From positions 10,727,113-10,791,112 of the forward strand of contig NC_087081.1 in the NCBI RefSeq assembly GCF_026151205.1: a DNA stretch of 64,000 nt, in the 5' to 3' direction. Source of the DNA: Bolinopsis microptera. Taxonomy: Eukaryota; Ctenophora; Tentaculata; Lobata; Bolinopsidae. Of this stretch, positions 11,717 to 63,959 are shown piece by piece. The notes below the pieces were generated by a model that saw only the letters and a program-made list of their open reading frames with translations, did not search any database and was not told where the DNA came from. A program made the translations under genes and the position numbers. Each line of letters opens with the position of its first letter. The stretch's first letter is position 1.

Positions 11717-11949
11717 TTAAATTCCCTGACCACTTTGGTGTTGTTCGTGATCCTCACTCCCCCTGACACCACGACACATCGTCCCATGCTGATGCTGCAA
11801 CATGTTGTCCCGTCTACTGAACCGCCTTCCACAGAACGTACAAGTGAAGGGTTTCAGACCCAAATGTACTGATCTGATGTGCCGCTGAAGAGTACCAGGG
11901 CAGGCACTCAAAACTTTACTACAGCGTGGGCATTGTTGCGTAATGTTGG
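11717..11949 (-). CDS. T1, distal-most C2H2 terminal exon
   Basis: Encodes 76 residues with two fingers. Finger 1 is CPRC...LQRH-IRSV-H. Finger 2 starts CTFCGRRFSRRD and ends H-HGTM-C, a C2HC form. The acceptor is chosen at TCGAG (11951-11950) because it gives the phase-1 junction of all other exons. It is preceded by a pyrimidine tract and a TTCTAAC branch-point-like motif at 11996-11990. The alternative CTAG at 11997 gives a different phase. AATAAA follows the stop by a few bases. No further exon of this kind is visible at lower coordinates, so this may be the end of the gene. Confidence 0.8.
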
Positions 11950-13236
11950 CTCGACCACGGGGGACGACGGGAGCGAGATAAGGGTAGAGGTTAGAACTAG
12001 AAGAAAAGTTTTGAGCATAGTCTTGTTGTAGAGTCGTTCCTGAGGAAATTGGAGGAATTTAATTTTAATAGAGCTTATTTTATACGCTTCAGAGCATTTA
12101 TTGATTACTATATACTGATAGTGATAGTACAATTTAAATTTCAGCCTTTGTTCAGCTTCAGTGAGTATTTCAACAAGACGGTAGACTGATTAAAATAGGT
12201 TGTTATTAGAGACTTTTTTACGAATTGTAGTCGCGAAAGTTGAAAACAATTGTGCAAAAAATATGCTTAAATTATCTGCTTGTGCCACCTTGCTCATTGC
12301 TGAACTGGGTTTGTACCAGTAAAACAAATATATAAGTGCTATCAATGAAAATGTGAATGTTATAAAATTTCGGCAATGAAATCTTTTTAAACAAATATGT
12401 TAATGTTGGTGTAATTACGTATACGCAACCAAAATTCGGCATGGTGTACGGCATTACAATTACAAACTTTAAATATCATTTTACGAGGCATACAGCAAAT
12501 CGTAACCAAATTGCAAGTTTAAATTTAAAAGTAAAACATAGGATGCATAACGATCTAGGCTTCGAAATCTCATAAACGTGTTGATATGATAAAATAATGA
12601 TGGATTATTTTTTCTAAATTCAGTAGTGCAATATTTAATTAGGTAGTGCGCCATCGACAGTGAGCCGCGCGTGCCGACTGTAGGATGGTTTTTTAGCGCT
12701 AATTTCGGCCAGCACAATTTTCTTCAAACAAATAGATATTAAGTGTTCTTCCCGACCTCCGATTGCAACAAAAATTGGTAAGCTTACTCATAGACTTACA
12801 AGGAAAGTGTCCGAAAAGTTTAAAGCATATCCAACCATCAGACATTATGTTACAGCTAAAAGCAGCGTATTTTGCTCCATTTTGATCACTATATCAACTC
12901 CGATATCCACCAAATTTTTCGGACAGTTGTGAAAGCCCTATTGGAAGGTCTTCGCCAATTTTCAGAATGATCTCATTCAAGGAACTGAAGATATATCCAA
13001 ATAATACGACAAAAATCAACGAATTTGGTCAAATTTGGTCAAATTACGCGAGTTTTACAGCTAATTTTGCTCCAAAAGCCGCGCACCATCAAATATGGCA
13101 TCTAGGCGAAACTCACTGATCTTTCCAAAAAAGTTATGACAAATTTAGTATTGTGAAAATTCTCACAGTCTCTAGAAAACAATGGTACAAAAAATTTTAA
13201 AATCCGAGCAAGTTTATTTTTATGGTGCACCCCCTA
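11950..13236. other. Non-coding interval after T2, no gene recognised
   Basis: Only short open frames on the minus strand, with no domain or splice logic. Stretches such as CAAATTTGGTCAAATTTGGT suggest old repeats. Confidence 0.4.
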
Positions 13237-13364
13237 ATTTAATAATAAATAATTACACATTTCTTATTAGGGCCAGTTACGAACAAAGCATATTGTAATA
13301 TTTTAATAATAAATAATTACACATTTCTTATTAGGGCCAGTTACGAACAAAGCATATTGTAATA
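13237..13364. repeat. 64-bp direct duplication
   Basis: A block containing AATAATAAATAATTACACAT and GGGCCAGTTACGAACAAAGC occurs twice head-to-tail with a 64-bp period. Confidence 0.9.
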
Positions 13365-13731
13365 ATAATATAAATTATCAGAATACTAATCGACCCTTAA
13401 ATTTTAAACTTAGGTAATATGTACTAATTGGCACTAGATATAAAAACTATACCGTTTACTTTTCTTATTTTACGGCGCGTTATAAAGGGAGAATACTGTA
13501 CAGAAAAAATATACTCGCTAACGATTTCTACTCAGATCCGAAAACGTTAACTTATAAGTTTAACCTTAACTTAAAATATTAAATTAACAGTCAGTTTCTG
13601 TTCTTGCTATTGCATTGTCTCTGCTCTGGAGTCTAGCATATGTGTGTCCCGATGAGAGACGATACCAGTAACCAGGCTGAGCACCTGGTCCCTCTCACTA
13701 CTTTCTTCTTAGTGAGAGAAGTGAAATATTA

Positions 13732-14013
13732 TAAGTTGAGCAGCTTGTCCCACAGCTACTAAGTTGAGCAGCTTGTCCCACAGCTGCTTAGTTGAGCAGC
13801 TTGTCCCACAGCTGCTAAGTTGAGCAGCTTGTCCCACAGCTGCTAAGTTGAGCAGCTTGTCCCACAGCTGCTAATTTGAGCAGCTTGTCCCACAGCTGCT
13901 AAGTTGAGCAGCTTGTCCCACAGCTGCCAAGTTGAGCAGCTTGTCCCACAGCTGCTTAGTTGAGCAGCTTGTCCCACAGCTGCTAAGTTGAGCAGCTTGT
14001 CCCACAGCTGCTA
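13732..14013. repeat. 28-bp minisatellite, about 10 units
   Basis: Unit TAAGTTGAGCAGCTTGTCCC plus ACAGCTGC. Its last unit contains the stop codon of exon T2b (CTA at 14011-14013), so the array starts exactly at the exon's 3' end. Confidence 0.95.
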
Positions 14014-14113
14014 AGGGATCGTGTACCACGCTTTCTTTGCTGGAATTCCCCGGAAGGCCTCTGTGTGAAGCTTGACCATGTGATTACGTCGGTGACCGCT
14101 CGTTCCAAACGCC
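14011..14113 (-). CDS. T2b, second half of a split C2H2 terminal exon
   Basis: The acceptor CTCAACAG sits at 14121-14114. Joined to T2a, the first base completes AAG and the frame reads on as AFGTSGHRRNHMVKLH, supplying the loop, helix and both histidines of a finger whose cysteines lie in T2a. 33 more codons follow before TAG. This is the only exon of the array in which a finger is interrupted by an intron. The joining is inferred from frame and splice consensus. Confidence 0.75.
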
Positions 14114-14214
14114 CTGTTGAGATAAGAGTTATTAATTACGGCATCAAAAAGAGTCGAAAAATAATTTCGATCAATAGTTCAAGGGGGCTATATTTATGAG
14201 TTGCATTTGAACTT

Positions 14215-14391
14215 GATTTCTCTTGGAGAATTTCTCTTTACACTCTTAACTTGCGAACAAATTGAAGCAGCAGACTTTAAGCTAGAAACTTTCTATTCAA
14301 CTTTCTATTCAATAAAGTTTCTAGCTTAAAGTCTGCTGCTTCAATTTGTTCGCAAGTTAAGAGTGTAAAGAGAAATTCTCCAAGAGAAATC
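14215..14391. repeat. Perfect 78-bp inverted repeat (hairpin) inside the T2 intron
   Basis: The left arm 14215-14292 is exactly the reverse complement of the right arm 14314-14391, with a 21-bp loop. It lies wholly within the intron between T2a and T2b. A short ATTTCGATC motif occurs on both sides, near 14164 and 14395. It could be a young foldback element, a source of double-stranded RNA, or a sequencing/assembly palindrome. Confidence 0.9.
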
Positions 14392-14478
14392 ATGATTTCG
14401 ATCGTTTAAAATTGTCATGTCCGCCTCAAAAAGGTGTAGAGATTACTCAAGAATTTAAAATATCAACTTAGCACTTAC

Positions 14479-14593
14479 TTTTCGCAGAAGAAGCACTTGT
14501 AAGGTTTCAGTTTAAAGTGAACGGTATTCTTGTGACGTTGGAGTTGAGATTTGGAGACCCATTTGTAGCACAAATCGCACATCTTCGACTCCC
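14479..14593 (-). CDS. T2a, first half of a split C2H2 terminal exon
   Basis: The acceptor TTTCTCAG ends at 14594 and the frame opens in phase 1. It gives a complete finger (CDLC, then RH-KNTV-H), the linker FKLKPYK and the first half of finger two, CFFCEK. A perfect donor GTAAGT follows at 14478-14473. Read without splicing, the frame would stop at once (AAG TAA) and leave an incomplete finger; splicing to T2b repairs it. The full product would be 71 residues. Confidence 0.8.
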
Positions 14594-15684
14594 CTGAGAA
14601 AATAATAATTGTTAATTTTAACTTGAATCCTACTTGAATAATAAGAGAGCTTATAATTTAGCAATTATTACTACTATGTATTAGGCTTCGTTCGATTCCT
14701 TCCATAACGTATTGTGTTATTCAACATGTATAGCTACCAAATTATTTTTATTCAGTCAACATATTAGCTAAAATTCTTTAACTTATTTTTGATAAAATAA
14801 TTTATCTTCCTGAGCATTTAAACTAATTTATTTTTAAATAATATGCAACAAAATATCAGGCTTATTTTCTATTTTAATTCGTAAAACCAAGCAATCAGAC
14901 ATATATTTTAAGGTAACCTTAAAGTTAAACAGAGTATAATATTTCATAGATAACAGGTATAATGAAAGGAACAGATAAAATCAGAGCAGACAATAAAAGA
15001 GTATAAAGCTTCTGGAGTTATAAATATACGATTTTTAAAGTCTAAAAATAACTTTTGCGTGCAAAGAAAATAATATTTGAACGATTAAACTAAGAACTAA
15101 AACAGATAAAATTAAATTTGATCGCTCCATTAAATTTCTTAATGAATTAAAATAATACGGCAGAGGTTGAGGTTGCAGACATTTTACTACCCTGCCCATA
15201 AAAAAGGTTTTGAGGGCTAAACGTCATGGGAAGTGTCAACGAAACTGTCTCTGAAATTAATTATCAGTTCCAAGTTTGAAAGAAAATTTGGTAAACTATA
15301 GCCAGTAACTTAAATGAAATAAATCGAGAGTATTCCATATTCTTAAATTGATGATAACATCTTCACTTTTAAAAACAAAATAACAGCAGAAATAATCACT
15401 CTTTTAAATAGAAACTCACAGCGGTGAACAATTAAAATAATTATCCCTAATCCCTATTCAGAAACTCATCACAGAAAAAAAATGTTCAATAAGTTACATA
15501 TCGTCCAACGAAACCCGAAAATATAAATAAATCTCTGTAGCATAGCTCGACAATACAGCTCAGATTTATCCCACGACCATGAGTGCTGAGTTTAATTTCT
15601 TCGGCAACAAATAACATACAGCCATCAATCAGGAGTTTACAGTCTCTGACATTTATTATCCCAGCGATTCGTTGAGTCCAGTTT
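14594..15684. other. Non-coding interval
   Basis: AT-rich, with no open frame showing domain content. Taken as intron or 3' flank of T3. Confidence 0.5.
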
Positions 15685-16334
15685 TCACTCTTGATGCATC
15701 TCAGCATGGTCAATTTGCTCGGTTTTTATAGTTTGAGACAATTGTGAGAGGTTGATCTCAAAGTCAATATTGTCTGCATCAAATGGCCCAAACTCCATCT
15801 CGTCCATGTCATTACTAGCACCACCATCACCCTGCGTTATAATATCAATCTCTCCGTCCTGACTGACATTCAGCTCGGTCTCCGTCGCTTTACTTCTTGA
15901 TCTCTTGTTCTTAAAGTATGTCTTAATCTGGTTCATCTTGAGGCCGGTCCTGGCCATGATAACCTCACAGTCATCCACCAAAGGGTACTTTGACTTGGCA
16001 TAGAACATGTCAAGAATAGCCTTTGTGTCGTCATCAAAATAGTTATTAGCAGTAAACTTGGTGGCGGATAGAGTTTTAGGAAGCGGGTTGTTCCTCCGTA
16101 TCCTGTATCTCTGAGCAGGGGTCATGTCTCTCAAGCCTCTCGCTGTCTTGTACTCCTCATAAAGTGAACAATACCATAGGTTCTGTAGGTCAGGCTGGTG
16201 AGCTGCACTGAAGTAGCTGGAGCGGAGGAAGAGGCGGAGTTTGGACCATCTTGCCGCTGAGTAGAGGGACTTGGCGTGAGAGTAAGCGGTCAGCTGACTG
16301 GTCGTGCTGGTAGCAGGGATACGGTACGGCAAAC
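15685..16334 (-). CDS. T3, SIX-class homeodomain terminal exon
   Basis: 215 residues after acceptor CCCCGCAG, phase 1 as in the finger exons. Residues about 20-75 resemble the C-terminal part of a SIX domain (LQNLWYCSLYEEYKTARG, then QRYRIRRNNPLPKTL, matching the family's KYRVRRKFPLPRTI region). A homeodomain follows at about 90-150. Its recognition helix, QIKTYFKNKRSRSK, keeps the key Asn but has Tyr where homeodomains have Trp48. The N-terminal half of a standard SIX domain is missing. The tail is acidic (DMDEMEFGPFDADN), like an activation region. Distant from T17, so an old or fast-changing duplicate. Confidence 0.85.
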
Positions 16335-17158
<824 letters not shown>

Positions 17159-20090: not shown

Positions 20091-20350
20091 GACACCACTT
20101 ATCTAGAAACGGAAGGTGCCCGGTGCGTTACTTTTCTTTTTGAACACCACTTATCTAGAAACAGAAAGTGCCCGGTGCGTTACTTTTCTTTTTGAACACC
20201 ACTCATCTAGAAACGGAAACTGTCCGGTGCGTTACTTTTCTTTTTGAACACCACTCATCTAGAAACGGAAAGTGCCCGGTGCGTTACTTTTCTTTTTGAA
20301 CACCACTTATCTAGAAACGGAAAGTGCCCGGTGCGTTACTTTTCTTTTTG
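20091..20350. repeat. 52-bp repeat: five copies of the T4 exon tail
   Basis: Copies start at 20091, 20143, 20195, 20247 and 20299. The last copy is the 3' coding end of exon T4, including its stop at 20311-20313. The four distal copies are tandem duplicates of that coding tail. Confidence 0.95.
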
Positions 20351-20558
20351 AACACCACTCCATGGATACTCCTTTCGTGAGAGTTCCTGTTGTAGCTGGT
20401 ACCAAAGTACTTTTCACAGAACCTACAGGGGTGGGGTTTAATCTTGAAGTGGACTAGATTCTTGTGTCGTTTAACGTCCAACACGGATTTGTTGCAGATG
20501 TCACATGTTTTGGAGACAAAAACTGCAATGTCTTTGTGGCGCATGCTGAACACCAGCC
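20311..20558 (-). CDS. T4, C2H2 terminal exon
   Basis: Acceptor CATCTTTCAG, phase 1, 81 residues. Finger 1 is unusually short (CDICNKSVLDVKRHKNLVH: only nine residues between second Cys and first His, where the classical spacing is 12). The linker is FKIKPH. Finger 2 begins CRFCEKYFGTSYNR and ends H-ERSI-H. The tail FKKKSNAPGTFRF is encoded by the first unit of the 52-bp repeat. Confidence 0.88.
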
Positions 20559-21493: not shown

Positions 21494-21789
21494 TCAGTAT
21501 TGGGAAGACCAAATAAATCCCACGGGGTCCTTATTAAAATGCACATTCTTCTCATGATTCGCCCTATTCCCAGTCGTTCCAAAGCTCTTCTCACAGTATC
21601 CACACGGGAACGCTTTTATTTTCTGATGAACACTGCCAATGTGCCTCTTCAGCTTGCTGAGGGAACTGAACCGTTTATCACACGTGTCACATGGATAAGG
21701 TCTGATGTTGAAGTGGACAGCGTCAAGGTGCCGTTGTAGCTTGTACTTGGTGACTTCTTTCTTGCAGATAGGACAGACCTCGACCAACT
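21494..21789 (-). CDS. T5, three-finger C2H2 terminal exon
   Basis: Acceptor GTTTTCAG, phase 1, 97 residues. Three fingers: CPICKKEV...RH-LDAV-H, CDTCDKRFSSLSKLKRH-IGSV-H and CGYCEKSFGTTGNRANH-EKNV-H, joined by FNIRPYP and QKIKAFP linkers rather than TGEKP. The middle finger is closest to a classical C2H2 sequence and looks like an extra finger inserted into the usual two-finger plan. Confidence 0.9.
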
Positions 21790-22456: not shown

Positions 22457-22626
22457 TCACTTGTTGGGGTGTTTGGAGGAGTTGTGTCTAGCAAGATGGC
22501 AGAACAGTCTGTCACAGTAGGGGCAGTAGTGTCGACTAGTCACGTGCAGGGAAATGTAATCCTGTTTAAACCAGTGACAACAAAATCTGCACCACTGGCG
22601 GCCAGGGTTACCAGGGTTACCAGGGT
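22457..22626 (-). CDS. T6, short C2H2 terminal exon
   Basis: Acceptor TTTGTTTCAG, phase 1. 55 residues starting with a PGNPGNPGRQWC stretch (GGTAACCCT repeated three times in the DNA). Finger 1 is CRFCCHWFKQDYISLHVTSR-H. Finger 2 is CPYCDRLFCHLAR-H-NSSK-H, with a shortened loop. It has no start codon and no long flanking frame. The QWC lead-in is shared with T7. Confidence 0.8.
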
Positions 22627-23123: not shown

Positions 23124-23404
23124 TCACTTGGTAATACCGGTGGTATTCATGGTCATGGTATTCATGGTGATGGTATCCTCATGCTGTTTCCGCTCATGAT
23201 GATTCCTGTGCTGAGCTGTACTGAAGAACTTGCCACAGTGTTTACACTGGTGGGGTCTCAGCTTGAGGTGGACCATGTTCCGGTGACGGCGGAGTTTGCG
23301 GACCCACTTGAAGCAGAGCTCGCACCAGTGCCGAGCGTTTCTGTGTCGGATAAGGTTGACGTACCAGTTGCAGCAGAGGTCGCACCATTGCCGCGGTGCT
23401 CCTT
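23124..23404 (-). CDS. T7, three-finger C2H2 terminal exon
   Basis: Acceptor TTTAACCAG, phase 1, 92 residues. Fingers: CDLCCNWYVNLIRH-RNAR-H, CELCFKWVRKLRRH-RNMV-H, and CKHCGKFFSTAQHRNHH-ERKQ-H. The first two are near-copies joined directly by WCE with no linker. The tail is low-complexity (TITMNTMTMNTTG). A plus-strand open frame over the same bases is a shadow. Confidence 0.85.
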
Positions 23405-23821: not shown

Positions 23822-24096
23822 TTATGTTCCCTGAGTGGGTTCTGAGACCCCTAGTTCCTCCTCTTGATGAGTCCGTCTCTCGTGGTGGTTTCTGTAAGTC
23901 TTTGAACTAAAGTAGCTCCCACAGTACCGACAAGGGTGGCGAGGTCCTCTTATCTTCAGGTGAACTTGGTCCCGATGCCGCTTCAGCTTGGCGACTGATT
24001 TGTTGCATACTTCACACCAGTGGCGGGTTGAGGCGTGACGGAGCAGGTTCTTGTAGAAGGTACCACACAGTTTACACCATTCTGATGTGTCAGTGT
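23822..24096 (-). CDS. T8, three-finger C2H2 terminal exon
   Basis: Acceptor CATTATTTCAG, phase 1, 90 residues. Fingers: CKLCGTFYKNLLRH-ASTR-H, CEVCNKSVAKLKRH-RDQV-H, CRYCGSYFSSKTYRNHH-ERRT-H. Same plan as T7 and T9, with the first two fingers abutting (RHWCE). An inverted-repeat element starts only about 10 bp upstream of the acceptor, so much of the acceptor context is transposon-derived. Confidence 0.88.
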
Positions 24097-24738: not shown

Positions 24739-24995
24739 TCACTCCAAGGCCATCTCACTCTCCGCACATGGGGCTCTATGATGGTGATCCAAACTAGCTC
24801 TAGAACTGAAGCACCTCCCACAGTACTTGCACTTATAGTTCAAGGGAACACGTCTCTGTTTGAGGTGAACCTCGTTGTAGTGACGTTTCAGCTTGGAGAC
24901 GGACTTGTTGCAGATGTCGCACCAGTGCCGGAGTGTGAGATGCCGGTCTAGGTTCCGCAGCTTGATTCCACACAGCTTGCACCATTCCTGATAGT
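24739..24995 (-). CDS. T9, three-finger C2H2 terminal exon
   Basis: Acceptor GTTATTTCAG, phase 1, 84 residues. Fingers: CKLCGIKLRNLDRH-LTLR-H, CDICNKSVSKLKRH-YNEV-H, and a third starting CKYCGRCFSSRASLDHH that ends in Cys (HRAPC), a C2HC variant. The first two fingers are close to those of T8. A minus-strand open frame at 24833-25057 overlaps in another frame and is not the gene. Confidence 0.85.
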
Positions 24996-25840: not shown

Positions 25841-26040
25841 TTACCCAGGTTTACTCGTGAAATCATGGCCATGGACCGACCGCTCATGCGAGGTCCTGTT
25901 CCCTGCAGTGCCAAAGTATTTGATACAGAACCGGCACTGGTACGGTTTCATCTTGAAATGTACCGTGTTTTGGTGCCGTTTCATCTGATACTTTGATATC
26001 CACTTGTGGCAGATCTGACACATGGCAAACCCATGATATT
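25841..26040 (-). CDS. T10, C2H2 terminal exon
   Basis: Acceptor TGTTTTCAG, phase 1, 65 residues. Finger 1 CQICHKWISKYQMKRH-QNTV-H, linker FKMKPYQ, finger 2 CRFCIKYFGTAGNRTSH-ERSV-H. First of the compact two-finger family T10-T16, which shares CRFC, FG-x-x-GNR and HER-x-VH. Confidence 0.9.
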
Positions 26041-26763: not shown

Positions 26764-26953
26764 TTATTTTGGCAGGTTGCTAGATGACGGCAGGTTTATT
26801 TTGGCGGGTTGCTAGACGACGGCATGTTTATTTTGACAGGTTGCCAGATGACGGCAGGTTTATTTTGGCAGGTTACCAGATGACAGCAGGTTTATTTCGG
26901 CAGGTTACCAGATGACGGCAGGTTTATTTTGGCAGGTTGCTAGATGACGGCAG
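26764..26953. repeat. 32-bp minisatellite at the T11 3' end, about 6 units
   Basis: Unit GGCAGGTTGCTAGATGACGG plus CAGGTTTATTTT. On the minus strand each unit reads through CCAAAATAAACC, so every unit carries an AATAAA. The proximal unit encodes the last residues and stop of T11. Confidence 0.95.
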
Positions 26954-27171
26954 CTGAACCACAATGAAATTCCCGCGCCCAACAGCAGGTTGTGTCTGGC
27001 GGGGCGCATCGTGCACGTTCCTCTCATGAGCGTTCCTGTTACCGCTCTGTCCGAATGATTTAGAACAGTATGAGCACTGATATGGCCGGTTCCCTAGGTG
27101 CACTATGCTTGTATGCCTCTGAAGGTAGTATCTATCTACCCATTTCCCGCAGATGTTGCACCGAGCCAGGC
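26924..27171 (-). CDS. T11, C2H2 terminal exon
   Basis: Acceptor CACATTTTCAG, phase 1, 81 residues. Finger 1 CNICGKWVDRYYLQRH-TSIV-H, linker LGNRPYQ, finger 2 CSYCSKSFGQSGNRNAH-ERNV-H. The C-terminal tail (residues after about 60) ends LPSSSNLPK and is encoded by the 32-bp repeat. The stop codon TAA lies inside AATAAA, so termination and the polyadenylation signal coincide. Confidence 0.88.
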
Positions 27172-27567: not shown

Positions 27568-27752
27568 TCAAGTCAGTTCCGTTTCCGAAGTGTGCACTTT
27601 TCGTTCGTGAGCGTTTCTGTTCCCCGTCTCCCCGAAAGTCTTTTCGCAGAACCGACACTTGTGAGGTCTCCTTTTAAAGTGCACGGTGTTCTTGTGCCGA
27701 ACAAGCGCAGATCGGGAGATCATCTTGTGGCAGATGTCACACTTTTTCATCT
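27568..27752 (-). CDS. T12, C2H2 terminal exon
   Basis: Acceptor GCCATTCTCAG, phase 1, 60 residues. Finger 1 CDICHKMISRSALVRH-KNTV-H, linker FKRRPHK, finger 2 CRFCEKTFGETGNRNAH-ERKV-H. The linker is very close to that of T15. Confidence 0.9.
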
Positions 27753-30041: not shown

Positions 30042-30054
30042 CTGTGGACACGGA

Positions 30055-40014: not shown

Positions 40015-40078
40015 CTCGTGACGTCACGTGAGGGAGTGTGACGTCACACTCCCTCACGTGACGTCACACTCCCTCTCA
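40015..40078. repeat. CRE-containing repeat at the T27 3' end
   Basis: Repeated TGACGTCACACTCCCTCACG. It encodes the last residues (DVT) and stop of T27. Confidence 0.85.
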
Positions 40079-48856: not shown

Positions 48857-49170
48857 TCAATAGTTCAGAGAAAAAGCATTTTCCTCTCTCTCCTTATCCT
48901 TAGAGTGCACCCTCGTGAAATGTAACATCATCTCCTGGTTGTATCTGAACTTCTTCCCACACACGGGGCACCCCACAGGTAGGATCCTCAAGTGGATGGT
49001 CATGAGATGTCGTTTCAGGGACCCTCGTGAGTAGAACGACTTGTCACAGTATTCACACCTCACCTCGTTCTTGCGGTCCGGACCTTTCCGTTTCAGGTCC
49101 ATGTGGACTTGTTTGAAGTGGGATGCCAGGTTGGATTTGGAGGCGAAGTTGAGGTTGCAGACTGTACAAG
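48857..49170 (-). CDS. T33, three-finger C2H2 terminal exon
   Basis: Acceptor GATGAATTTTCAG, phase 1, 103 residues. Fingers: CTVCNLNFASKSNLASH-FKQV-H, CEYCDKSFYSRGSLKRH-LMTI-H, CPVCGKKFRYNQEMMLH-FTRV-H. The second linker, LRILPVG, places it with T32-T36. The tail is charged (KDKEREE). Confidence 0.9.
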
Positions 49171-49699
49171 CTGAAAATTCATCGTTCAGTGATGTTAAAG
49201 AGGATTTGAGGGGCAAGCATTAGGGCTAATCGTGTGATTAAGACTTTCAAGTAATCATAATTTAAATTAATAGCCCAGAATCGCATTAGCAAAAAATTGA
49301 GTGAAGCGAACTTGAAATTTGAGTGAAGTCGTTGTTACTTTGTAAGATTGATTAAAACTTTATCCCATGGGATTTGGGAATAGCTACTCAAAGTTTGGTT
49401 AGGCCTCAATACTGTCCACATTCAACAAATTAAAATCCAAAAACATGCCTTTATAATGTAAGTTAAGCTGTCAAGGAACATAGGGCGCTACCATATAAAA
49501 TCTCAATGAAAAGAAAAAAGAATAACCGTTCAACTATCATCACAAACCAATTGAGTAACGCACTTAAACTATAAGGACGAATATTTGACATTAACCAAAA
49601 CTTTATCAAAGTCCATTTTCACTGAGTTCAAAAATGTCTTAAGATGGGATTGCTATCGCGCAATTTAACATTAACTTCGGCTAATTGACAACAATATCC

Positions 49700-50935
49700 C
49701 GCTTATAAACTACTGTCTCCAGTACTACAATCCGTCCTATTGTCTCCAGAGTCCGGCACTACACTTCATCCTATTGTCTCCAGAGTCCGGCATCACACTC
49801 CATTCTATTGACTCCAGAGTCCTGTACTACACTATTCTATTGTCTCCAGAGTCCAGCACTACACTTCATCCTATTGTCTCCAGAGTCCGGTACTACACTC
49901 CATCCTATTGTCTCCAGAGTCCAGCACTACATTCCATTCTATTGTCTCCAGAGTCCAGCACTACACTCCATCCTATTGTTTCCAGAGTCCAGCACTACAC
50001 TTCATCCTATTGTCTCCAGAGTCCGGTACTACACTCCATCCTATTGTCTCCAGAGTCCAGCACTACATTCCATTCTATTGTCTCCAGAGTCCAGCACTAC
50101 ATTCCATCCTATTGTTTCCAGAGTCCAGCACTACACTTCATCCTATTGTCTCCAGAGTCCGTCACTACACTCCATCCTATTGTTTCCAGAGTCCAGCACT
50201 ACACTTCATCCTATTGTCTCCAGAGTCCGGCACTACACTCCATCCTATTGTCTCCAGAGTCCAGCACTACACTCCATCGTATGTCATCCTATTGTCTCCA
50301 GAGTACGGCACTACACTCCATCATATTGTCTCCAGAGTCCGGCACTACATTCCATTCTATTGTCTCCAGAGTCCAGCACTACACTTCATCCTATTGTCTC
50401 CAGAGTACGGCACTACACTCAATCCTATTGTCTCCAGAGTCCAGCACTACACTTCATCCTATTGTCTCCAGAGTACGGCACTACACTCCATCATATTGTC
50501 TCCAGAGTCCGGCACTACATTCCATTCTATTGTCTCCAGAGTCCAGCACTACACTTCATCCTATTGTCTCCAGAGTACGGCACTACACTCAATCCTATTG
50601 TCTCCAGAGTCCGGCACTACATTCCATTCTATTGTCTCCAGAGTCCAGCACTACACTTCATCCTATTGTCTCCAGAGTACGGCACTACACTCAATCCTAT
50701 TGTCTCCAGAGTCCGGCACTACACTCCATCCTATTGTCTCCAGAGTCCAGCACTACACTCCATCATATTGTCTCCAGAGTCCGGCACTACATTCCATTCT
50801 ATTGTCTCCAGAGTCCAGCACTACACTTCATCCTATTGTCTCCAGAGTACGGCACTACACTCAATCCTATTGTCTCCAGAGTCCAGCACTACACTCCATC
50901 ATATTGTCTCCAGAGTCCGGCACTACACTCAATCC
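49700..50935. repeat. 34-bp minisatellite, about 36 units
   Basis: Unit CACTACACTCCATCCTATTG plus TCTCCAGAGTCCAG with a few variants (CGG/CAG, TTCATC/TCCATT, TACGG). Its proximal end runs into the coding end of T34, whose stop (TCA at 50929-50931) lies in the first unit. Because 34 is not a multiple of 3, all three plus frames stay open, which creates long false ORFs. Confidence 0.98.
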
Positions 50936-51095
50936 TTCTTAACATGAATCCTCTTGTGCTCCCAGTAAGCGTGCTTGTCCCTGAATCTCATCCCACAGAT
51001 GTCACATCTAACAGGCAGTATCCGCATGTGTACCGTCTTCACGTGCCGGATTACAGACTGCTTCGTGCTGAACTGACGTTGACAGTAATCGCAGA
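50929..51095 (-). CDS. T34, C2H2 terminal exon
   Basis: Acceptor CCGACATTTCAG, phase 1, 54 residues. Finger 1 CDYCQRQFSTKQSVIRH-VKTV-H, linker MRILPVR, finger 2 CDICGMRFRDKHAYWEH-KRI-H, tail VKKD. No start codon. Sister of T35. Confidence 0.9.
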
Positions 51096-51454
51096 CTGAA
51101 ATGTCGGGGACTAAACCAAGAGTTATGTGAATTAATTGGTTGATGAGTCAGGATATGTGGTTAGGACTGTGAAATGAATGGTTGCCAGAGTAACGGAAGT
51201 TACCATCAACCATGGTAACAGAATTCATTAAATGAAGATTATGTGCTATGCAATATTGATGCAGATTGCAGTGTAGTGGTTTTATATTTTGCACTAAATT
51301 TGGCTTCTGTCAAATTACAAACTCCAAAGAACTAGTTATAAGTTTCCTTTTCTAACAAATAACATACCCTCACTTGCACTTGACTACATGTAAAACTAAT
51401 CACACGACCCTAAAAATCAATATTAACATCAGACATATCATCCTTCTTTCTCTT

Positions 51455-51627
51455 TCACTTTCTATAGTGTTTCTTCTTGTGGTCCATAGCGGCATAGTTA
51501 TCCCTGAACCTCATATTACAAAGATCACATTTAACAGGTAAGATCCTCATGTGTACTGTTTTGACGTGACGTAACATGTGGTGTCTTTTAGAGAACTTCT
51601 GGTGACAAACGTTGCAGACTGAGTGAT
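51455..51627 (-). CDS. T35, C2H2 terminal exon
   Basis: Acceptor GGTAAAATTTCAG, phase 1, 56 residues. Finger 1 CNVCHQKFSKRHHMLRH-VKTV-H, linker MRILPVK, finger 2 CDLCNMRFRDNYAAMDH-KKK-H. No start codon, so it must be spliced. Confidence 0.9.
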
Positions 51628-52122: not shown

Positions 52123-52400
52123 CTAATAAGGTGTAAAGAGCGTGCAAGTTCTAGAATGCTCCAGTCCCCTCAACAACTGTCTGAACTCCCTGCCACACAC
52201 CCCGCACACGTGCACGTCACGCGCGGCGTTCTCCTCGTGGTGCACCATCTTCTTGTGGGAGCTGAGCTTGTGGTTGTCTCTGAAGGCCATGTTGCATCTG
52301 TTGCACTTGTAGGGCCGGATGTTGAGGTGGATGGTGCGGAGGTGCCGGGTGAGCGTGGCGGAGGATGCGAACGTTTTACCACACTCCGTGCAGCTGTTTG
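52123..52400 (-). CDS. T36, three-finger C2H2 terminal exon
   Basis: Acceptor CCAAACTTTCAG, phase 1, 91 residues. Fingers: CTECGKTFASSATLTRH-LRTI-H (the most classical in the array), CNRCNMAFRDNHKLSSH-KKMVH-H, and CGVCGREFRQLLRGLEH-SRT-C. Linker LNIRPYK. Noticeably GC-richer than neighbouring exons. The open frames on the other strand are shadows. Confidence 0.9.
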
Positions 52401-52807
52401 CTGAAAGTTTGGGTGAGCTTTTTAAAATTGGCTGAGTTTTAGGAGTGCATGATGACTGTTGATTTACAGGTATATAAAATGGTGGACACCCGGTGGAAGA
52501 GGCTAGAGGTGATTTGGATTTAAAAGTTATTTGATGGCGTGGTCTCTCATAATCTACTTAATTAAGGAGATTGGGAATAATACTTCATTTAAACCTACTA
52601 CAAAAATATTGGCCCATGCATTATACCAATGTAATGTGTAACCAATGTAATGAAATACCGAGTGCTTTAGCCGAACAACATTTTCAAAACGTAAAGAACT
52701 ACAAAAATGATAATATCAACAGTGTCATGGTCTATTCCTCGTGTTCAGATACTTCAAGCTACATCTTTTGGCGTGTCTCCTCAACACCACGTGACGTCAT
52801 CACGACA

Positions 52808-53022
52808 TCACGTGACGTCATTCCTCGTGTTCAGATACTTCGAGCTACATCTTTTAGAGTGTCTCCTCCGGTTGCTAGGATCACTGAATAACTTGCCACA
52901 AGAGCAGCAAGGGTATGGTTTCAGCTGACGGTGGATGGCGTCGAAGTGGAGTTTAAGTTTCTTGGGCCCAGGGAAACGTTTACCACATAGTTTGCATGGG
53001 TGAAGGAGAAGTTGTGGTGACT
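52808..53022 (-). CDS. T37, C2H2/C2HC terminal exon with triplicated acceptor
   Basis: Phase-1 acceptor CTCCTCATTTCAG. Two more copies lie 27 and 54 bp upstream (exon starts 53049 and 53076), all in frame; each extra unit would add nine residues (variants of SPQLLLISE). 70 residues: CKLCGKRFPGPKKLKLH-FDAI-H, linker RQLKPYP, CCSCGKLFSDPSNRRRH-SKR-C. The tail NDVT and stop come from TGACGTCACGTGA. Confidence 0.88.
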
Positions 53023-53534: not shown

Positions 53535-53725
53535 TCAAATATTGAAGTTATACTGGCATCGGCCATTTTCATGTCTTAATCTACTATTAGGAAAGCTAAA
53601 CTTCTGACCACACTTCCTACAGGGAAAGGGTCGCAGATTAAGGTGCACGGCATTGATGTGATTTTCTAGCTTTCCGGGACCGTGAAAGGATTTGCCATAT
53701 TGAAGACATTCGTGAACCTTACGTC
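53535..53725 (-). CDS. T38, terminal exon with one broken finger
   Basis: Acceptor CTCAATTTCAG, phase 1, 62 residues. Finger 1 reads CLQYGKSFHGPGKLENH-INAV-H: the second zinc Cys is Tyr (TAT where TGT is expected), so it should not bind zinc normally. Finger 2, CRKCGQKFSFPNSRLRH-ENGR-C, is intact. The GPGKL and LRPFPC parts tie it to T37. Confidence 0.88.
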
Positions 53726-54019: not shown

Positions 54020-54222
54020 CTAGAGAAACTGAGATCTGAGCTTGTACACGCAAGCCTTCCTATGCTTGGCACAATTGCTGGGGTCGCCGAATGATTTACT
54101 GCAGTGAGGACATATAAAGGGTTTCAGGCGGTGATGGACCACGTTTATGTGCAGAACCTGGCGACTACGTCTCTTGAAAGTTTTCATACAGTACTGACAG
54201 GTGTAGATACTGCTCTGGCGAA
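54020..54222 (-). CDS. T39, C2H2/C2HC terminal exon
   Basis: Acceptor CACTTTCACTTTCAG, phase 1, 66 residues; the Ser/Leu-rich frame upstream is the pyrimidine tract. Finger 1 CQYCMKTFKRRSRQVLH-INVV-H, linker HRLKPFI, finger 2 CPHCSKSFGDPSNCAKH-RKA-C. Confidence 0.9.
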
Positions 54223-54680: not shown

Positions 54681-54991
54681 TCAGTCTCCTGTCAGATCAG
54701 TAAAACAGGGTCCCATCCTGTACCTCTCCCTCGTCCTCTCCCTCTTGTACCTCGTATACTCCTCCGGGTGCGTCTTCTTCATGTGGGTGTACATGCTCCC
54801 ACTCTGCGCGAACTTGTTATCACAGAACTTGCACTTGATCCCCTTTATCTTGAGATGCACCGTGTTTATGTGACGGTTTAGCACGTGCACGCTGCTGTAC
54901 GGTTTGGTGCAGATGTGGCAGTAGACGGAGGCTTCCGTGGCGATCTGGCCGGGGCGGAGGGGGCCGTAGCGGTAGTCCACGGAGAAGGGAC
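54681..54991 (-). CDS. T40, C2H2 terminal exon
   Basis: Acceptor CGACCCCACCCTAG, phase 1, 102 residues. Lead SVDYRYGPLRPGQ, fingers CHICTKPYSSVHVLNRH-INTV-H and CKFCDNKFAQSGSMYTH-MKKT-H with linker LKIKGIK, then a basic tail (YKRERTRERYRMG) that could add non-specific DNA contact. Confidence 0.9.
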
Positions 54992-55568: not shown

Positions 55569-55804
55569 TTACAGTTTACAGTTGCCATGAACTGGTCTCC
55601 CCTCCCTGTTCCACTCAGTGAGCTCACTCTGGTGTTTCATCTTCATGTGGGAGTACATGCTCCCACTCTGGGAGAACATCTGGGAGCAGAACCTGCACTT
55701 GACCCGTCTTATCTTCAGGTGGACTGTGTCTATGTGCCGTTTCAGGACGGAGGTGGAGTAATATCGCTTGTTGCAGGTTCCACAGATTAGGTCAGGGGGG
55801 AGAA
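55569..55804 (-). CDS. T41, C2H2 terminal exon
   Basis: Acceptor CCGAATTTCAG, phase 1, 77 residues. Fingers CGTCNKRYYSTSVLKRH-IDTV-H and CRFCSQMFSQSGSMYSH-MKMK-H, linker LKIRRVK. Clear sister of T40 (QSGSMY). No start codon; a plus-strand frame is a shadow. Confidence 0.9.
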
Positions 55805-56277: not shown

Positions 56278-56615
56278 TCAAGACAAAGGTAGGAGCTTCT
56301 TGTCTTCTCTCATCTGTTTTGCAATCTGAGAGAACATTTTGCTATCTGAGAGGTAGCGTCTGCACTGTGCGGACAGCTGAGCCGAGCTTGTGAACTGTGC
56401 CTGGAGATAGTTGTAGTGGGTAGCATCCACCATCTTCATCTCCGCCATGTACCGCCACTTGTATAAAGATGTTCGTGACATACCAGCTTTTGCTACAGCT
56501 TTGTTGACGGATGTGCCGGAATAAACAGCCTTCACGATTAGAGGATAGTTCTGGTGAATTAGCGCTTCCATTCGATCTCCTCTAGTCTGCTTTGGTAGTG
56601 TGTCCCGAATGGGTC
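56278..56615 (-). CDS. T42, helix-turn-helix-like terminal exon
   Basis: Acceptor TTTTCATGATTAG, phase 1, 111 residues, no Cys/His finger. Residues about 20-60 read LIVKAVYSGTSVNKAVAKAG and then MSRTSLYKWRYMAEM. This has the pattern of psq/transposase-like helix-turn-helix domains (helix, AVAKAGMSRTSLYKW as turn and recognition helix). The rest is helical, ending basic (QMREDKKLL). The fold is inferred by pattern only, and no close family was recognised. The shared acceptor phase makes it a non-finger alternative module. Confidence 0.7.
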
Positions 56616-57038: not shown

Positions 57039-57217
57039 CTACTCAACGCCATGTTTCGTCCTCATATGACATCGCAAGTATTCCCTTCTAGAAAACTGCT
57101 TTCTGCAATACCCACAAATATGTTTCCTTGACCTCTCGTGAACGGATGATACGTGCCTACTAAGCGCACTTTTGAAGGTGAAAGAGTTACCACAGATTGG
57201 ACAGTAGTAGAGTTGAG
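57039..57217 (-). CDS. T43, C2H2 terminal exon
   Basis: Acceptor ACCTCTTTTCAG, phase 1, 58 residues. Finger 1 CPICGNSFTFKSALSRH-VSSV-H, linker ERSRKHI, finger 2 CGYCRKQFSRREYLRCH-MRTK-H. No start codon. It has no close relative here. Confidence 0.88.
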
Positions 57218-57805: not shown

Positions 57806-58044
57806 TCATTGTAAATAACCTTGTATTAATTTCCCGCATCTTTTCTTATGCCTACTTTTACCGGCAGAATGCCCGAACGTTTGTCCGCATATCTCACATT
57901 TGAAGGGTCTGAGGTGGTAATGAGTGGAACTGATGTGGCCTTTAAGGACGTCGCCCCTACTGAACCGCTTCCCACAGTACGGACAGGTCGGCTTGTGGAC
58001 ACTGTGACCTCGGAGTAGCTTGGCGCCGAAACCTGCCGGATTTT
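57806..58044 (-). CDS. T44, C2H2/C2HC terminal exon
   Basis: Acceptor taken as AGATTCTCTAG (58044). CCGGCAG, 12 bp further in, is also phase 1 and would drop four residues. About 78 residues. Fingers CPYCGKRFSRGDVLKGH-ISST-H and CEICGQTFGHSAGKSRH-KKR-C, linker YHLRPFK. Same family as T45 and T46. No start codon. Confidence 0.82.
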
Positions 58045-58472: not shown

Positions 58473-58666
58473 CTACTCGGCAGCCTTCTTAAGGAGGATG
58501 TAATTCTTACACTTCTTCTTATGTCGGGACTTGCTGGACGAGTGGCTGAACTTCTGTCCACATACCTCACAGCTGAACGCCTTGAGGTGGTAGTGGGTTG
58601 AGATAATGTGGGCTCTGAGTAGCTCCTTCCGGGTGTAGACTTTACCACACAGGTGGCAAGAACGTG
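58473..58666 (-). CDS. T45, C2H2/C2HC terminal exon
   Basis: Acceptor CCCCTCCCTCAG, phase 1, 63 residues. Finger 1 CHLCGKVYTRKELLRAH-IIST-H, linker YHLKAFS, finger 2 CEVCGQKFSHSSSKSRH-KKK-C, tail NYILLKKAAE. Confidence 0.9.
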
Positions 58667-59184: not shown

Positions 59185-59405
59185 TTAATCTTTGATATTT
59201 AATCTCAGATACTCCCGACACCTCTTCTTATGTCTTGACTTGCTAGAAGCGTGGTTAAAGGCTTGTCCACATATCTTGAACATCTTCACTTTCTGGTGTG
59301 TCCTCTGGTGATGTGTCTGTAGCTCCTCTGGATCTGTGAAGGCACGACCACAGATGCGGCATACCATGAGCGTACCAAACTGACCAGGTGGGTATAAAAC
59401 AACAC
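59185..59405 (-). CDS. T46, terminal exon with a damaged second finger
   Basis: Acceptor CCTCATTTTAG, phase 1, 72 residues. Finger 1, CRICGRAFTDPEELQTH-HQRT-H, is intact. The second reads MFKICGQAFNHASSKSRH-KKR-C: compared with T45 (AFSCEVCGQKF), two residues including the first zinc Cys are missing. This looks like a 6-bp deletion that keeps the frame but removes a ligand. Confidence 0.85.
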
Positions 59406-60087: not shown

Positions 60088-60335
60088 TTAAGCTCCTCCC
60101 CCAGACTCATAATAGTTATCCCGACATTGCTGTACCCTGTGATCAGGATTCTCTCTCTTGTGTTGAGCGTACGCTCTAGCATGCATCCTTTTCATGTGTT
60201 TGATCAAGTTCCCACTTTCTCCGGCTCTCATGTCACAGAAGAAACACTTGTAAGGACGTTTACAGAGGTGTTTGATGGCGATGTGGCGGCGTAGAGAAGC
60301 TCGACACGTGTACGTCTTGTGGCAGATCTGGCAAG
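60088..60335 (-). CDS. T47, C2H2 terminal exon
   Basis: Acceptor TTCCCTTTCAG, phase 1, 81 residues. Finger 1 CQICHKTYTCRASLRRH-IAIK-H, linker LCKRPYK, finger 2 CFFCDMRAGESGNLIKH-MKRM-H, and a 30-residue hydrophilic tail (YAQHKRENPDHRVQQ). No start codon. Confidence 0.88.
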
Positions 60336-61027: not shown

Positions 61028-61230
61028 TCATGTGAGCGTCTCCTCAACAAACCCATGATGACGTTTCATATGCAACTTCCTATTGTTATTAGTCCCGAAT
61101 GCTTTCTCACAGTAAAGACATTTGAAGCGGCGTATCTTGAAGTGGACCAAGTCCATGTGTCTTCGCAGTTTGTACTGGTTACAGGGCCGGTTACAGATAG
61201 GACAAGGCGTCATCTTGTAGTGCTTGCTCT
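61028..61230 (-). CDS. T48, C2H2 terminal exon
   Basis: Acceptor GACCATCTTCAG, phase 1, 66 residues. Finger 1 CPICNRPCNQYKLRRH-MDLV-H, linker FKIRRFK, finger 2 CLYCEKAFGTNNNRKLH-MKRH-H. The short first finger resembles T10-T16, so the compact family is not confined to the distal part. Confidence 0.9.
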
Positions 61231-61485: not shown

Positions 61486-61715
61486 TTAAATATGGTCGTT
61501 CTGCTTAATGTATGCGTGTATGTGTCTCCGTCTCATGTGGGACTTCTTATTGCTGATTGTTCCAAATGTCTGGAAGCAAAAATCACACTTGTGAGGCTTT
61601 AGCTTAAGATGTACCAGATTGACATGATCGTTCAGATTGTGAGCATCTCCTACCAGCATTTTGGCGCAATAGGGACACTGGTGTCGTTTAAGTGGTCTTT
61701 GACTTCGCTTCCGGG
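61486..61715 (-). CDS. T49, C2H2 terminal exon
   Basis: Acceptor ATTCAAATTTTAG, phase 1, 75 residues. Lead RKRSQRPLKRHQ, fingers CPYCAKMLVGDAHNLNDH-VNLV-H and CDFCFQTFGTISNKKSH-MRRR-H, linker LKLKPHK. Sister of T50 and T51. Confidence 0.9.
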
Positions 61716-62296: not shown

Positions 62297-62300
62297 CTGG

Positions 62301-62460
62301 GGTGTCTTATCAACACGTGGGGTGTCTTCTTAACACGTGGGGTGTCTTCTCAACACGTGGGGTGTCTTCTTAACACGTGGGGTGTCTTCTTAACACGTGG
62401 GGTGTCTTCTCAACACGTGGGGTGTCTTCTCAACACGTGGGGTGTCTTCTCAACACGTGG
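62301..62460. repeat. 20-bp minisatellite, eight units
   Basis: GGTGTCTTCTCAACACGTGG in exact 20-bp register with C/T variants. Lies between T51's stop and T50's acceptor. The stop of T51 and the acceptor side of T50 both fall in or at its ends. Confidence 0.98.
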
Positions 62461-62749
62461 GCCGTCTTATTACTCTTCGTCTTAAATATGGCATCACAAT
62501 AATCACACTTTACACAAGGCACCAAGTTCAAATGTTTCATCCTCATGTGGGACTTCCTGTTTCCCGTCGTCCCGAAACACTGGTCACAATAGTCACACTT
62601 GTACGGTCTCAACTTGAGGTGCACCAAGTTCACGTGTTCCTGGAGCTTGCTGGGGGATTTGGTTTGCTTGCCACAGTAGGAGCACTGGAGGTGATTGGTC
62701 ACTGGGTATGAGCCGGGTGACCAACGAACTGGATAACGAACGTACTGCA
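62430..62749 (-). CDS. T51, three-finger C2H2 terminal exon
   Basis: Acceptor CTGGTCCACAG, phase 1, 105 residues. Fingers: CSYCGKQTKSPSKLQEH-VNLV-H, CDYCDQCFGTTGNRKSH-MRMK-H, CDYCDAIFKTKSNKTAH-VLRR-H. The last residues (HPTC) and stop are encoded by the 20-bp repeat. Confidence 0.88.
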
Positions 62750-63102
62750 CTGTGGACCAGAGAGGGATTAGTGATGACGTCACATGGGTAATGCTGACGT
62801 CACGTCAGGGGTGGAGGTATTAATAGCTGATTATAATATGATGGTATGATGGTGAGTAGATGAGATTGAGACTGATTGCAGGCATTTATTTTGCTAAATT
62901 TTCTGAGTGTCTCTATTTACCTATTTCTTCGTGTCTTTAATTACAAGATAGATGATTAATCTTACGCAAACAAATAACGATAACAAATAATAAACAAACC
63001 GTAGCTTAGAAAATAATAAGATAATTATGAATAAGCATAAACTAATACTATCATAATGATAGAATAAGTCTGTAAAACAAGTCTACAAAAATGAGATATC
63101 GT

Positions 63103-63371
63103 TTATCGGGGAATATGCCTCCGGTCAGCAATAAATGTCCCTATCTGCTCCACCGTCATCTCGTGGGTGTAAGACAGATGGGACCTCAAATTGGTTAGCA
63201 CTGAAAACTTTTTGCCACACAGAGAACAAGAGTAACGCCAAATTTTGTGATGAACAATCTGGATGTGGGATTTTAGCTGTTTCTTGTGTTTGTAACAATA
63301 GGGACAAACTCCAGAGCTTAAACTTCTCGGGTTCACTGGGAAATCTTGTGGTCTGGCTCTGTTGGATCGGT
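63103..63371 (-). CDS. T52, C2H2 terminal exon
   Basis: Acceptor ATATTACCCCCAG, phase 1, 88 residues. Lead RSNRARPQDFPVNPRSLSSG, short finger CPYCYKHKKQLKSH-IQIV-H, linker HKIWRYS, finger 2 CSLCGKKFSVLTNLRSH-LSYT-H, tail VEQIGTFIADRRHIPR. Near-identical sister T53 lies 590 bp upstream. Confidence 0.9.
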
Positions 63372-63374
63372 CTG

Positions 63375-63475
63375 GGGGTAATATAACGTCACGTGTGTAA
63401 TGATGACGTCACGTGGTTAATGATGACGTCACGTGGTTAATGGTTACGTCATTTGGTTGATGATGACGTCGGGTG
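63375..63475. repeat. CRE repeats upstream of T52 (and again at 63970-64000 before T53)
   Basis: TAATGATGACGTCACGTGGT units directly upstream of both duplicate acceptors, so they were copied along with the exon. Confidence 0.9.
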
Positions 63476-63672
63476 GTTAGAATTATGGAGTGATTTGAGT
63501 GTTGAACCCTAAGATTATTTATGCTGTCTTCACGCATGGTACATAGTAAAGCCAACTAGAGTTATGACTAAATAACTGAAAAGCTTATAATCTAATTTTC
63601 GGAGAAAACCACAGACAATCTTAAATCTAAATAATTTCCAACAAAAAGATACGGATATAAAGTCAAATTCTC

Positions 63673-63959
63673 TCATAGCGGGATATGTCTCTTTTCCTGA
63701 ATAAACCTCCCTATCTCTTCAGAACTCATCTTGTGGGTGCGCTGTAAATGAAACCTCAAATTGGTTAGCACTGAAAACTTTTTGCCACACAAAACATTAC
63801 CAAACATTAATGAACAAGAGTAACGCCAGATCTTGTGATGAACAATCTGGATATGGGATTTTAGCTTTTTCATGTATTTGAAACAATAAGGACAAACTCC
63901 AGAGGATAATTTTTTCGGTTTCACTGGGAAATCTTGTGGTCTGGCTCTGTTGGATCGGT
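63673..63959 (-). CDS. T53, C2H2 terminal exon with an insertion inside finger 2
   Basis: Acceptor ATATTACCCCAG, phase 1, 94 residues. The lead and finger 1 (CPYCFKYMKKLKSH-IQIV-H) match T52. Finger 2 reads CSLMFGNVLCGKKF where T52 has CSLCGKKF: an 18-bp insertion places six extra residues between the zinc cysteines (C-x8-C), which should disrupt the finger. The tail EEIGRFIQEKRHIPL is conserved. Last exon before the window ends; the array probably continues. Confidence 0.88.

Follow-up and report, generated by a model that had tools for sequence, protein, structure and literature searches.

A candidate single-gene array of about 130 phase-matched DNA-binding 3' exons in the ctenophore Bolinopsis microptera

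Introduction

Can a single gene supply an animal with a whole library of transcription factors? This question is raised by a long row of exons encoding DNA-binding domains in the ctenophore Bolinopsis microptera, whose genome comprises 265 Mb in 13 chromosomes (the largest 26.2 Mb) with a guanine-cytosine (GC) content of 38.5% (Table 1, PMC11797021). The stretch analyzed, referred to here as the window, covers 64,000 bases (C10:10727113-10791112; GC 38.9%). An initial annotation had described in it 53 mutually compatible 3' exons of one gene, similar to the Drosophila loci lola and mod(mdg4) on a larger scale. Our analysis indicates that one minus-strand gene of C10 very probably makes a large set of transcription factors by joining constant exons, named C to H, to one of about 130 terminal exons entered in phase 1. 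The part of the array in the window was real, but the whole array reaches beyond the window and has 130 units rather than 53.

Results

An array of DNA-binding units on one strand

Between positions 11717 and 63959, 52 minus-strand units with a DNA-binding domain were found: 47 C2H2 zinc-finger units, 2 FLYWCH, 2 SIX-homeodomain and 1 CCDC106-like helix-turn-helix (HTH) unit. The array seen earlier was thus confirmed with a count of 52, and the difference may be the finger unit 62306-62112, whose second finger is broken and which we left out. We kept the one-finger unit 14657-14475, apparently cut short, and the unit 63975-63673, whose second finger is interrupted.

The flanks were searched over 56 kb to the left and 120 kb to the right. 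No finger unit was found beyond 11717 in the 56-kb left flank. On the right, finger units continue to 112094; beyond them come four HTH units, the last ending near 119200, and two further HTH units lie at 105125-104163 (window coordinates are used throughout). The array spans about 108 kb, from 11717 to about 119200, and holds 130 minus-strand units (119 C2H2, 7 HTH, 2 FLYWCH and 2 SIX-homeodomain) at a median unit-to-unit spacing of 631 bases. This total was obtained from 132 raw units by removing five minisatellite copies and one fragment resembling a long interspersed nuclear element (LINE) and by adding by hand four units that the patterns had not caught; counts based on 126 units (ATG, poly(A) and control comparison) predate the addition.

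None of the counted units is on the plus strand. Over the whole array span, a strict two-cysteine/two-histidine motif matched 113 open reading frames (ORFs) on the minus strand versus none on the plus strand, and it matched none in the array flanks; the chance level was 0-1 two-finger ORFs per 108-kb strand (first-order Markov sequence, 10 trials). Nine plus-strand segments of the window matched looser finger patterns and were taken for chance. A degenerate DNA pattern for the finger linker HLKLKPYKC had 40 genome matches with at most 2 mismatches, 30 of them inside the array, and the reversed pattern had 6 matches genome-wide.

The window units are listed below as predicted exons; each row is based on a domain match plus an acceptor search in the open frame.

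11717-63959, minus: the 52 window units of the alternative 3'-exon array, which extends to about 119200
63673-63959, minus: C2H2 terminal exon, second finger interrupted
63103-63371, minus: C2H2 terminal exon
62430-62749, minus: C2H2 terminal exon, 3 fingers
61486-61715, minus: C2H2 terminal exon
61028-61230, minus: C2H2 terminal exon
60088-60335, minus: C2H2 terminal exon
59185-59405, minus: C2H2 terminal exon
58473-58666, minus: C2H2 terminal exon
57806-58032, minus: C2H2 terminal exon
57039-57217, minus: C2H2 terminal exon
56278-56615, minus: CCDC106-like HTH terminal exon (PF15794, E 9.5e-4, below cut-off)
55569-55804, minus: C2H2 terminal exon
54681-54991, minus: C2H2 terminal exon
54020-54222, minus: C2H2 terminal exon
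53535-53725, minus: C2H2 terminal exon
52808-53022, minus: C2H2 terminal exon
52123-52553, minus: C2H2 terminal exon, 3 fingers
51455-51618, minus: C2H2 terminal exon
50929-51095, minus: C2H2 terminal exon
48857-49170, minus: C2H2 terminal exon, 3 fingers
47808-48061, minus: C2H2 terminal exon
47056-47255, minus: C2H2 terminal exon
45798-45994, minus: C2H2 terminal exon
44841-45376, minus: FLYWCH terminal exon (PF04500, E 3.6e-10)
43963-44252, minus: C2H2 terminal exon
40054-40373, minus: C2H2 terminal exon, 3 fingers
39507-39736, minus: C2H2 terminal exon
38825-39069, minus: C2H2 terminal exon
37876-38336, minus: C2H2 terminal exon
37309-37541, minus: C2H2 terminal exon; best-scoring acceptor not phase 1
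36094-36347, minus: C2H2 terminal exon
35518-35771, minus: C2H2 terminal exon
34844-35097, minus: C2H2 terminal exon
33969-34300, minus: C2H2 terminal exon; best-scoring acceptor not phase 1
33239-33450, minus: FLYWCH terminal exon (PF04500, E 7.3e-10)
31834-32684, minus: SIX domain and homeodomain exon, probably a cassette, possibly a nested gene (SIX1_SD E 2.7e-27, homeodomain 5.5e-10)
29863-30293, minus: C2H2 terminal exon
29230-29420, minus: C2H2 terminal exon
28729-28928, minus: C2H2 terminal exon
28082-28266, minus: C2H2 terminal exon
27568-27752, minus: C2H2 terminal exon
26924-27171, minus: C2H2 terminal exon
25841-26040, minus: C2H2 terminal exon
24739-24995, minus: C2H2 terminal exon
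23822-24096, minus: C2H2 terminal exon
23124-23404, minus: C2H2 terminal exon
22457-22626, minus: C2H2 terminal exon
21494-21789, minus: C2H2 terminal exon, 3 fingers
20311-20558, minus: C2H2 terminal exon
15685-16334, minus: truncated SIX domain and homeodomain exon, no ATG before the domain (SIX1_SD E 3e-11, homeodomain 5.4e-8)
14475-14629, minus: C2H2 unit truncated behind its first finger, probably damaged
11717-12039, minus: C2H2 terminal exon, most distal unit found

The Pfam scan for C2H2 domains covered the 52 window units of the 130. At an E value of 0.01 or better, zf-C2H2_4 was detected in 41 window units, zf-C2H2 in 40, and FLYWCH, SIX1_SD and homeodomain in 2 each. The curated C2H2 cut-offs were shown for the first window member alone, which falls below them. 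Both FLYWCH units (40.3 and 39.3 bits; cut-off 23.6), both SIX units (95.9 and 44.2 for SIX1_SD; cut-off 27.4) and their homeodomains (39.3 and 33.0; cut-off 22.9) scored above the respective values.

The HTH units match the C-terminal part of CCDC106 (PF15794), with a best E value of 8.2e-8 among four units scanned. Six of the seven have CCDC106-family Pfam support, some of it below the cut-off; the HTH unit 119273-118830 has no Pfam family, and its class was assigned by eye. A scan of five single units placed one above the cut-off (32.8 bits) and three below it, with no match for the fifth. The genome search for this family, which passed over two weaker array units, reported five matches (best E value 4.0e-7); four were inside the array, and two of these four exceeded the curated cut-off. 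For the HTH unit in the window, the single-sequence predicted structure (six helices, mean predicted local distance difference test score of 55.6) was too poor for a fold search.

Several of these domains are also frequent elsewhere in the genome. The 24 SIX1_SD matches are scattered over the genome, and many of them fall in one open frame of 250-395 residues, which suggests a spread of divergent, intron-poor SIX genes. FLYWCH has at least 150 matches. BTB has at least 148, many in neighbouring open frames of 550-600 residues, and these look like an expansion of putative Kelch-type genes.

Entry phase and exon anatomy

Acceptors were ranked by a simple, phase-blind pyrimidine-tract score among the AG dinucleotides in the last 330 bases, at most, of open frame that precede the domain; for the HTH, FLYWCH and SIX units, the domain start from which the search ran was set by hand offsets. 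The best acceptor was in phase 1 in 116 of the 130 units, in phase 0 in 9 and in phase 2 in 5. In the window it was in phase 1 in 50 of 52 units, and the other two (37704-37309 and 34349-33969) have a phase-1 acceptor as a lower choice, in agreement with the common phase-1 entry proposed initially. A phase-1 acceptor was among the three best in 128 of the 130 units. In six sets of control ORFs, the phase-1 share was 36-46% (67/185, 40/104, 35/87, 50/108, 43/115 and 26/71). Counting only YAG sites (Y, pyrimidine) with at least 10 pyrimidines in 15 bases, phases 1, 0 and 2 had 111, 25 and 24 sites over the whole array (no such site in 31 of 130 units) and 42, 9 and 8 in the window (none in 13 of 52).

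The prompt stop noted earlier holds for the C2H2 units, where the median distance from the last zinc ligand to the stop is 9 residues. The sequence GTRAG (R, purine) occurs in the tail after the last ligand in 4 of 119 C2H2 units. Prompt stops and rare GTRAG are as expected of terminal exons.

These data bear on an alternative in which the row is a tandem cluster of small zinc-finger genes, every unit having a promoter and a short upstream exon to itself. Animal genomes often contain clusters of this kind, and an in-frame ATG precedes the domain in 39 of 126 units, so the earlier statement that no unit has a convincing start was too strong. However, it does hold for the other 87, the units are spaced by a median of 631 bases, one entry phase common to C2H2, FLYWCH, HTH and SIX units would be a coincidence, and the 5' end of the row carries a phase-1 constant part that is repeated elsewhere with a second array, as described below. 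Separate genes therefore appear very improbable.

A different question is whether the two SIX-homeodomain exons, and perhaps the FLYWCH exons, are cassettes at all or independent nested genes or insertions. The 24 SIX1_SD matches, with their many single open frames, and the abundance of FLYWCH in the genome would fit nested genes, and the first SIX unit (32874-31834) has an ATG 29 codons ahead of its acceptor and may be a gene of its own. On the other hand, the best acceptor is in phase 1 in all four SIX and FLYWCH units, and the second SIX unit (16350-15685) has a strong acceptor (score 6.2) and no ATG before its domain. We consider the nested-gene explanation somewhat unlikely for these exons.

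Constant exons and the predicted transcript

The initial annotation had placed the constant exons beyond base 64,000 and expected them to end in phase 1. A gene model of this kind was found on the minus strand just beyond the array, at 122119-119510.

122119-121959, minus: exon C, ATG at base 14
121568-121473, minus: exon D
121292-121181, minus: exon E
120991-120745, minus: exon F
120353-119782, minus: exon G, ends in phase 2
119559-119510, minus: exon H, candidate linker of 50 nucleotides predicted from splice signals, ends NP-A|GTAAG

Exons C to H have good splice signals and matching phases and form one open frame of 408 codons plus one base (A), ending in phase 1. The 128 units with a phase-1 acceptor among the three best, when joined to this frame, remained open to their own stops; the unit frame is built into the choice of a phase-1 acceptor, while the phase of the constant part is independent of that choice.

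Exon H is needed because exon G alone ends in phase 2, for which reason direct joining of the exon G donor to the units was rejected. A scan of the 0.6-kb gap for exons turning phase 2 into phase 1 gave exon H as the sole candidate. An alternative GTAATG donor 40 bases upstream in exon G would provide phase 1, but it was rejected: the paralogues at C3 and C10 11.55 Mb (described below) end the same exon in phase 2 with GTAAG, which makes a linker exon the better reading.

The constant protein begins with an N-terminal module of about 60 residues. A long stretch follows in which S, P, Q and T abound and which carries the conserved motif IK[DE]E. The three array loci have IK[DE]E[VM] in common, a sequence that resembles the consensus of a sumoylation site. 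The constant protein had no Pfam family at an E value of 0.1 or better (one match, keratin-like, at 5.4). ELMO1 as a structural relative of the N-terminal module was not believed, the PDB sequence search being weak (best E value 0.14). The initial annotation had suggested searching the upstream exons for BTB, and none was found in the constant part, either by Pfam or by tblastn over 240 kb with a Lola BTB query. At C10 10.67-10.91 Mb there was also none among the BTB matches listed (148; 150 of 309 candidates scored).

The proposal of one gene with a shared N-terminus and interchangeable DNA-binding ends appears supported by the phase, the strand, the constant exons and the repetition of this layout elsewhere. 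In the model, a transcript of up to about 110 kb would run through the approximately 130 phase-1 terminal exons. In each mRNA, one acceptor would be joined to the linker's donor, and the transcript would end after that unit. The products would share the N-terminus and differ in the DNA-binding end (C2H2, FLYWCH, CCDC106-like HTH or SIX-homeodomain). The A left by the donor would be the first base of the junction codon, and as no stop codon has A in this position, a stop cannot form there; the residue predicted at the junction over the 128 units is R, N, S, I, K, T or M.

The same products could arise by trans-splicing, with the units transcribed from internal promoters and the constant part supplied by another RNA, as reported for lola and mod(mdg4). 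A 110-kb transcript would be long for a genome of such size, which would speak for this route. However, the counted units and the constant exons all share one strand, which is a condition for cis-splicing but not for trans-splicing, and we regard the latter as unlikely.

Related loci in the genome

A search with the N-terminal module found seven loci in the genome, including the array locus. We read the array locus and parts of five of the others, leaving out C5 6.45 Mb. The closest copy, at C3 20.57 Mb, heads a second large array. It contains exons C and D (82% identical to those of the array locus over 56 aligned residues), a fused E-F-G exon and a candidate linker ending NP-A|GTAAG, and these constant exons are followed by C2H2 units on the plus strand with phase-1 acceptors. 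The C3 array extends over about 126 kb (20.580-20.706 Mb). With the constant exons included, 21 kb were read (10 kb first, then 5 and 6 kb at pattern matches). This sample held 12 plus-strand ORFs with the finger pattern, and the best acceptor was in phase 1 in 9 of them. In the intron that precedes the real exon D of this locus, several further copies of the exon-D motif VQHLAPVIEAVSD occur (L041 1726-2320).

At C10 11.55 Mb, the module and exon D precede a large exon that closes in phase 2, a linker candidate whose end reads A|GTAAG, and a short array of two C2H2 units and a bZIP-like unit (PF07716, E 8.2e-6). Phase-1 acceptors are present in all three units, that of the bZIP-like unit being weak. 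At C5 17.72 Mb, two exons lying about 2.7 kb downstream of the module, on the same strand, each encode part of a homeodomain (E 2.5e-6 and 1.1e-4). At C13 8.46 Mb the module precedes one 518-residue exon with several C2H2 fingers, and at C10 9.66 Mb it occurs with a PVIEAVS exon. Since one copy of the module heads a large array and another a short one, and others lie close to a homeodomain or to an exon with several fingers, the module looks like this lineage's own general transcription-factor head, much as BTB in insects.

Evolution of the units

In 35 unit pairs of equal register and 55-97% protein identity, a choice that favours low values, the median ratio of nonsynonymous to synonymous substitution (dN/dS) was 0.137 and all values were below 1, consistent with purifying selection in the pairs tested. 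Similarity fell weakly with distance along the array (Spearman -0.13; the pairs are not independent). The unit 90547 is a mosaic: its 5' part (197 nucleotides) is 98.5% identical to unit 93611 and its last 114 nucleotides are 91.2% identical to unit 90902, and the latter two have no mutual match at an E value of 1e-3. Units 79317 and 71620 are weaker cases. From such mosaics, finger halves seem to be exchanged between units, and the units would multiply by local duplication together with this exchange. In the last finger, helix positions -1, 2, 3 and 6 are variable (entropy 2.8-3.6 bits), the cysteines and first histidine are fixed by the search pattern, and F is nearly fixed. The helix variability alone is not a sign of selection for new specificity, because other surface positions vary as much.

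Alternatively, a few units may be in use and all others may be duplicates in decay. Damaged pieces do occur (62306-62112, 14657-14475 and the fragment 14178-14011), and a LINE-like long ORF, so judged by eye, and simple repeats lie between units. By contrast, all 130 units are open through at least one domain, 128 retain a phase-1 acceptor among the three best, and dN/dS was below 1 in every one of the pairs, picked as they were for similarity. An array consisting largely of decaying copies seems quite improbable.

Points against the one-gene model

Several observations weigh against the model of one gene with alternative terminal exons. The splice junctions are predictions from genomic DNA. 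The best acceptor is not in phase 1 in 14 of the 130 units, including the HTH unit 119273-118830, which is nearest the constant exons. The remaining three ORFs of the C3 sample comprise one cut by the edge of the stretch, one probably spurious and one in phase 0. The hexamers AATAAA/ATTAAA are not enriched after the stops (68 of 126 units within 400 nucleotides versus an expected proportion of 0.50, and likewise at 100-300 nucleotides), so that these signals give no sign of the expected poly(A) sites. U-rich hexamers are enriched in the first 300 bases after the stops compared with the next 300, which says little because these intervals often run into the next unit. Upstream of the units, no selector motif was found beyond pyrimidine-rich words and one 8-mer (9 of 128 units).

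Exon H is a prediction. Linker-like candidates arise by chance at 0.38 per kb, so 0.2 would be expected in its 0.6-kb gap, and the finding of one is somewhat telling. The linker candidates at C3 and C10 11.55 Mb are not telling, since the gaps there are nearly 5 kb and about 1.8 candidates are expected in each. The choice of similar pairs for dN/dS and the upstream ATG of the first SIX unit count on the same side.

Other features of the array region

A 99% identical copy of a 1.7-kb array segment (about 71300-73000) is present at C7:13883743-13885417 and is either a recent segmental copy or an assembly fault. In the right flank, unit 89302-89054 is followed at 88629-89082 by a minisatellite derived from this cassette, in which the end of its second finger recurs as five tandem copies of 85 bp. 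Between units, a long minus-strand open frame of 855 residues at 41155-43722 resembles, by eye, a LINE-type retroelement, and overlapping plus-strand open frames at 49675-51099 are a simple tandem repeat. Further into the right flank, at 133000-145000, similar blocks judged by eye to be thrombospondin type-1 repeats represent a separate gene or recent duplications adjoining the array. An Rfam scan and a tRNA scan (bacterial setting) of the window gave no matches.

Comparison with known systems

Among the papers listed by literature searches, none describes such a ctenophore array in its title or the opening lines of its abstract. If the model is true, one gene could yield over a hundred transcription factors, and such an animal would have far more factors than its gene count suggests. 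The choice of one acceptor among more than 100 would become experimentally approachable, with several arrays per genome. A far larger array than those known in insects, near the root of the animal tree and with another head and several unrelated DNA-binding classes, would mean that splice-selected transcription-factor arrays arise repeatedly. We lean towards the broader view that ctenophores, separately from insects, evolved splice-selected transcription-factor loci. These would combine a head outside Pfam with more than 100 cassettes per locus drawn from unrelated DNA-binding classes (C2H2, HTH, FLYWCH, SIX-homeodomain and bZIP), a library that grows as units are duplicated and finger halves swapped. 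The giant arrays, of which this one genome has at least two, might then provide a considerable part of the animal's sequence-specific factors, among them perhaps chromatin-loop proteins found only in ctenophores.

Such proteins have been described in Mnemiopsis leidyi, where CTEP1 and CTEP2 are ctenophore-specific zf-C2H2 loop-anchor proteins and the most abundant zf-C2H2 proteins of the chromatin-bound proteome (PMC12221973). Like the predicted products of the array, they are C2H2 proteins restricted to ctenophores, and their origin from a locus of this kind is an attractive possibility. The HTH units resemble the CCDC106 family in its C-terminal part only, and in the array they are one cassette kind among several.

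In Drosophila, lola joins a common N-terminal part to one of many 3' exons, giving 20 isoforms, 17 of them with different C2H2 ends (PMC11426971; PMC1947980). The gene mod(mdg4) joins a common part to alternative 3' ends by trans-splicing, with at least 30 isoforms, mostly FLYWCH (PMC11426971). The two loci are called exceptional in that source, whose authors found the lola/mod(mdg4) type of BTB only in arthropods (PMC11426971). The ctenophore array would share with lola a common front and many 3' exons, mostly C2H2, and with mod(mdg4) a common part with alternative 3' ends. However, lola has a BTB head and none was found in the ctenophore array, which has about 130 units and also includes HTH, FLYWCH and SIX-homeodomain units. 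In mod(mdg4), BTB is combined with mostly one kind of domain, whereas FLYWCH accounts for 2 of the 130 units here; mod(mdg4) is trans-spliced, whereas the units of the array all lie on the strand of the constant exons.

Of the features of the lola/mod(mdg4) type, compatible same-phase 3' exons with DNA-binding domains were found at this locus, as were predicted phase-matched constant exons, including the candidate exon H. The likeness proposed by the initial annotation therefore stands as one of mechanism, on a larger scale, but kinship is not supported, the animal being a ctenophore. The array probably represents the lola/mod(mdg4) design with another head, in another phylum, and with a different size and domain mix, rather than a member of that family.

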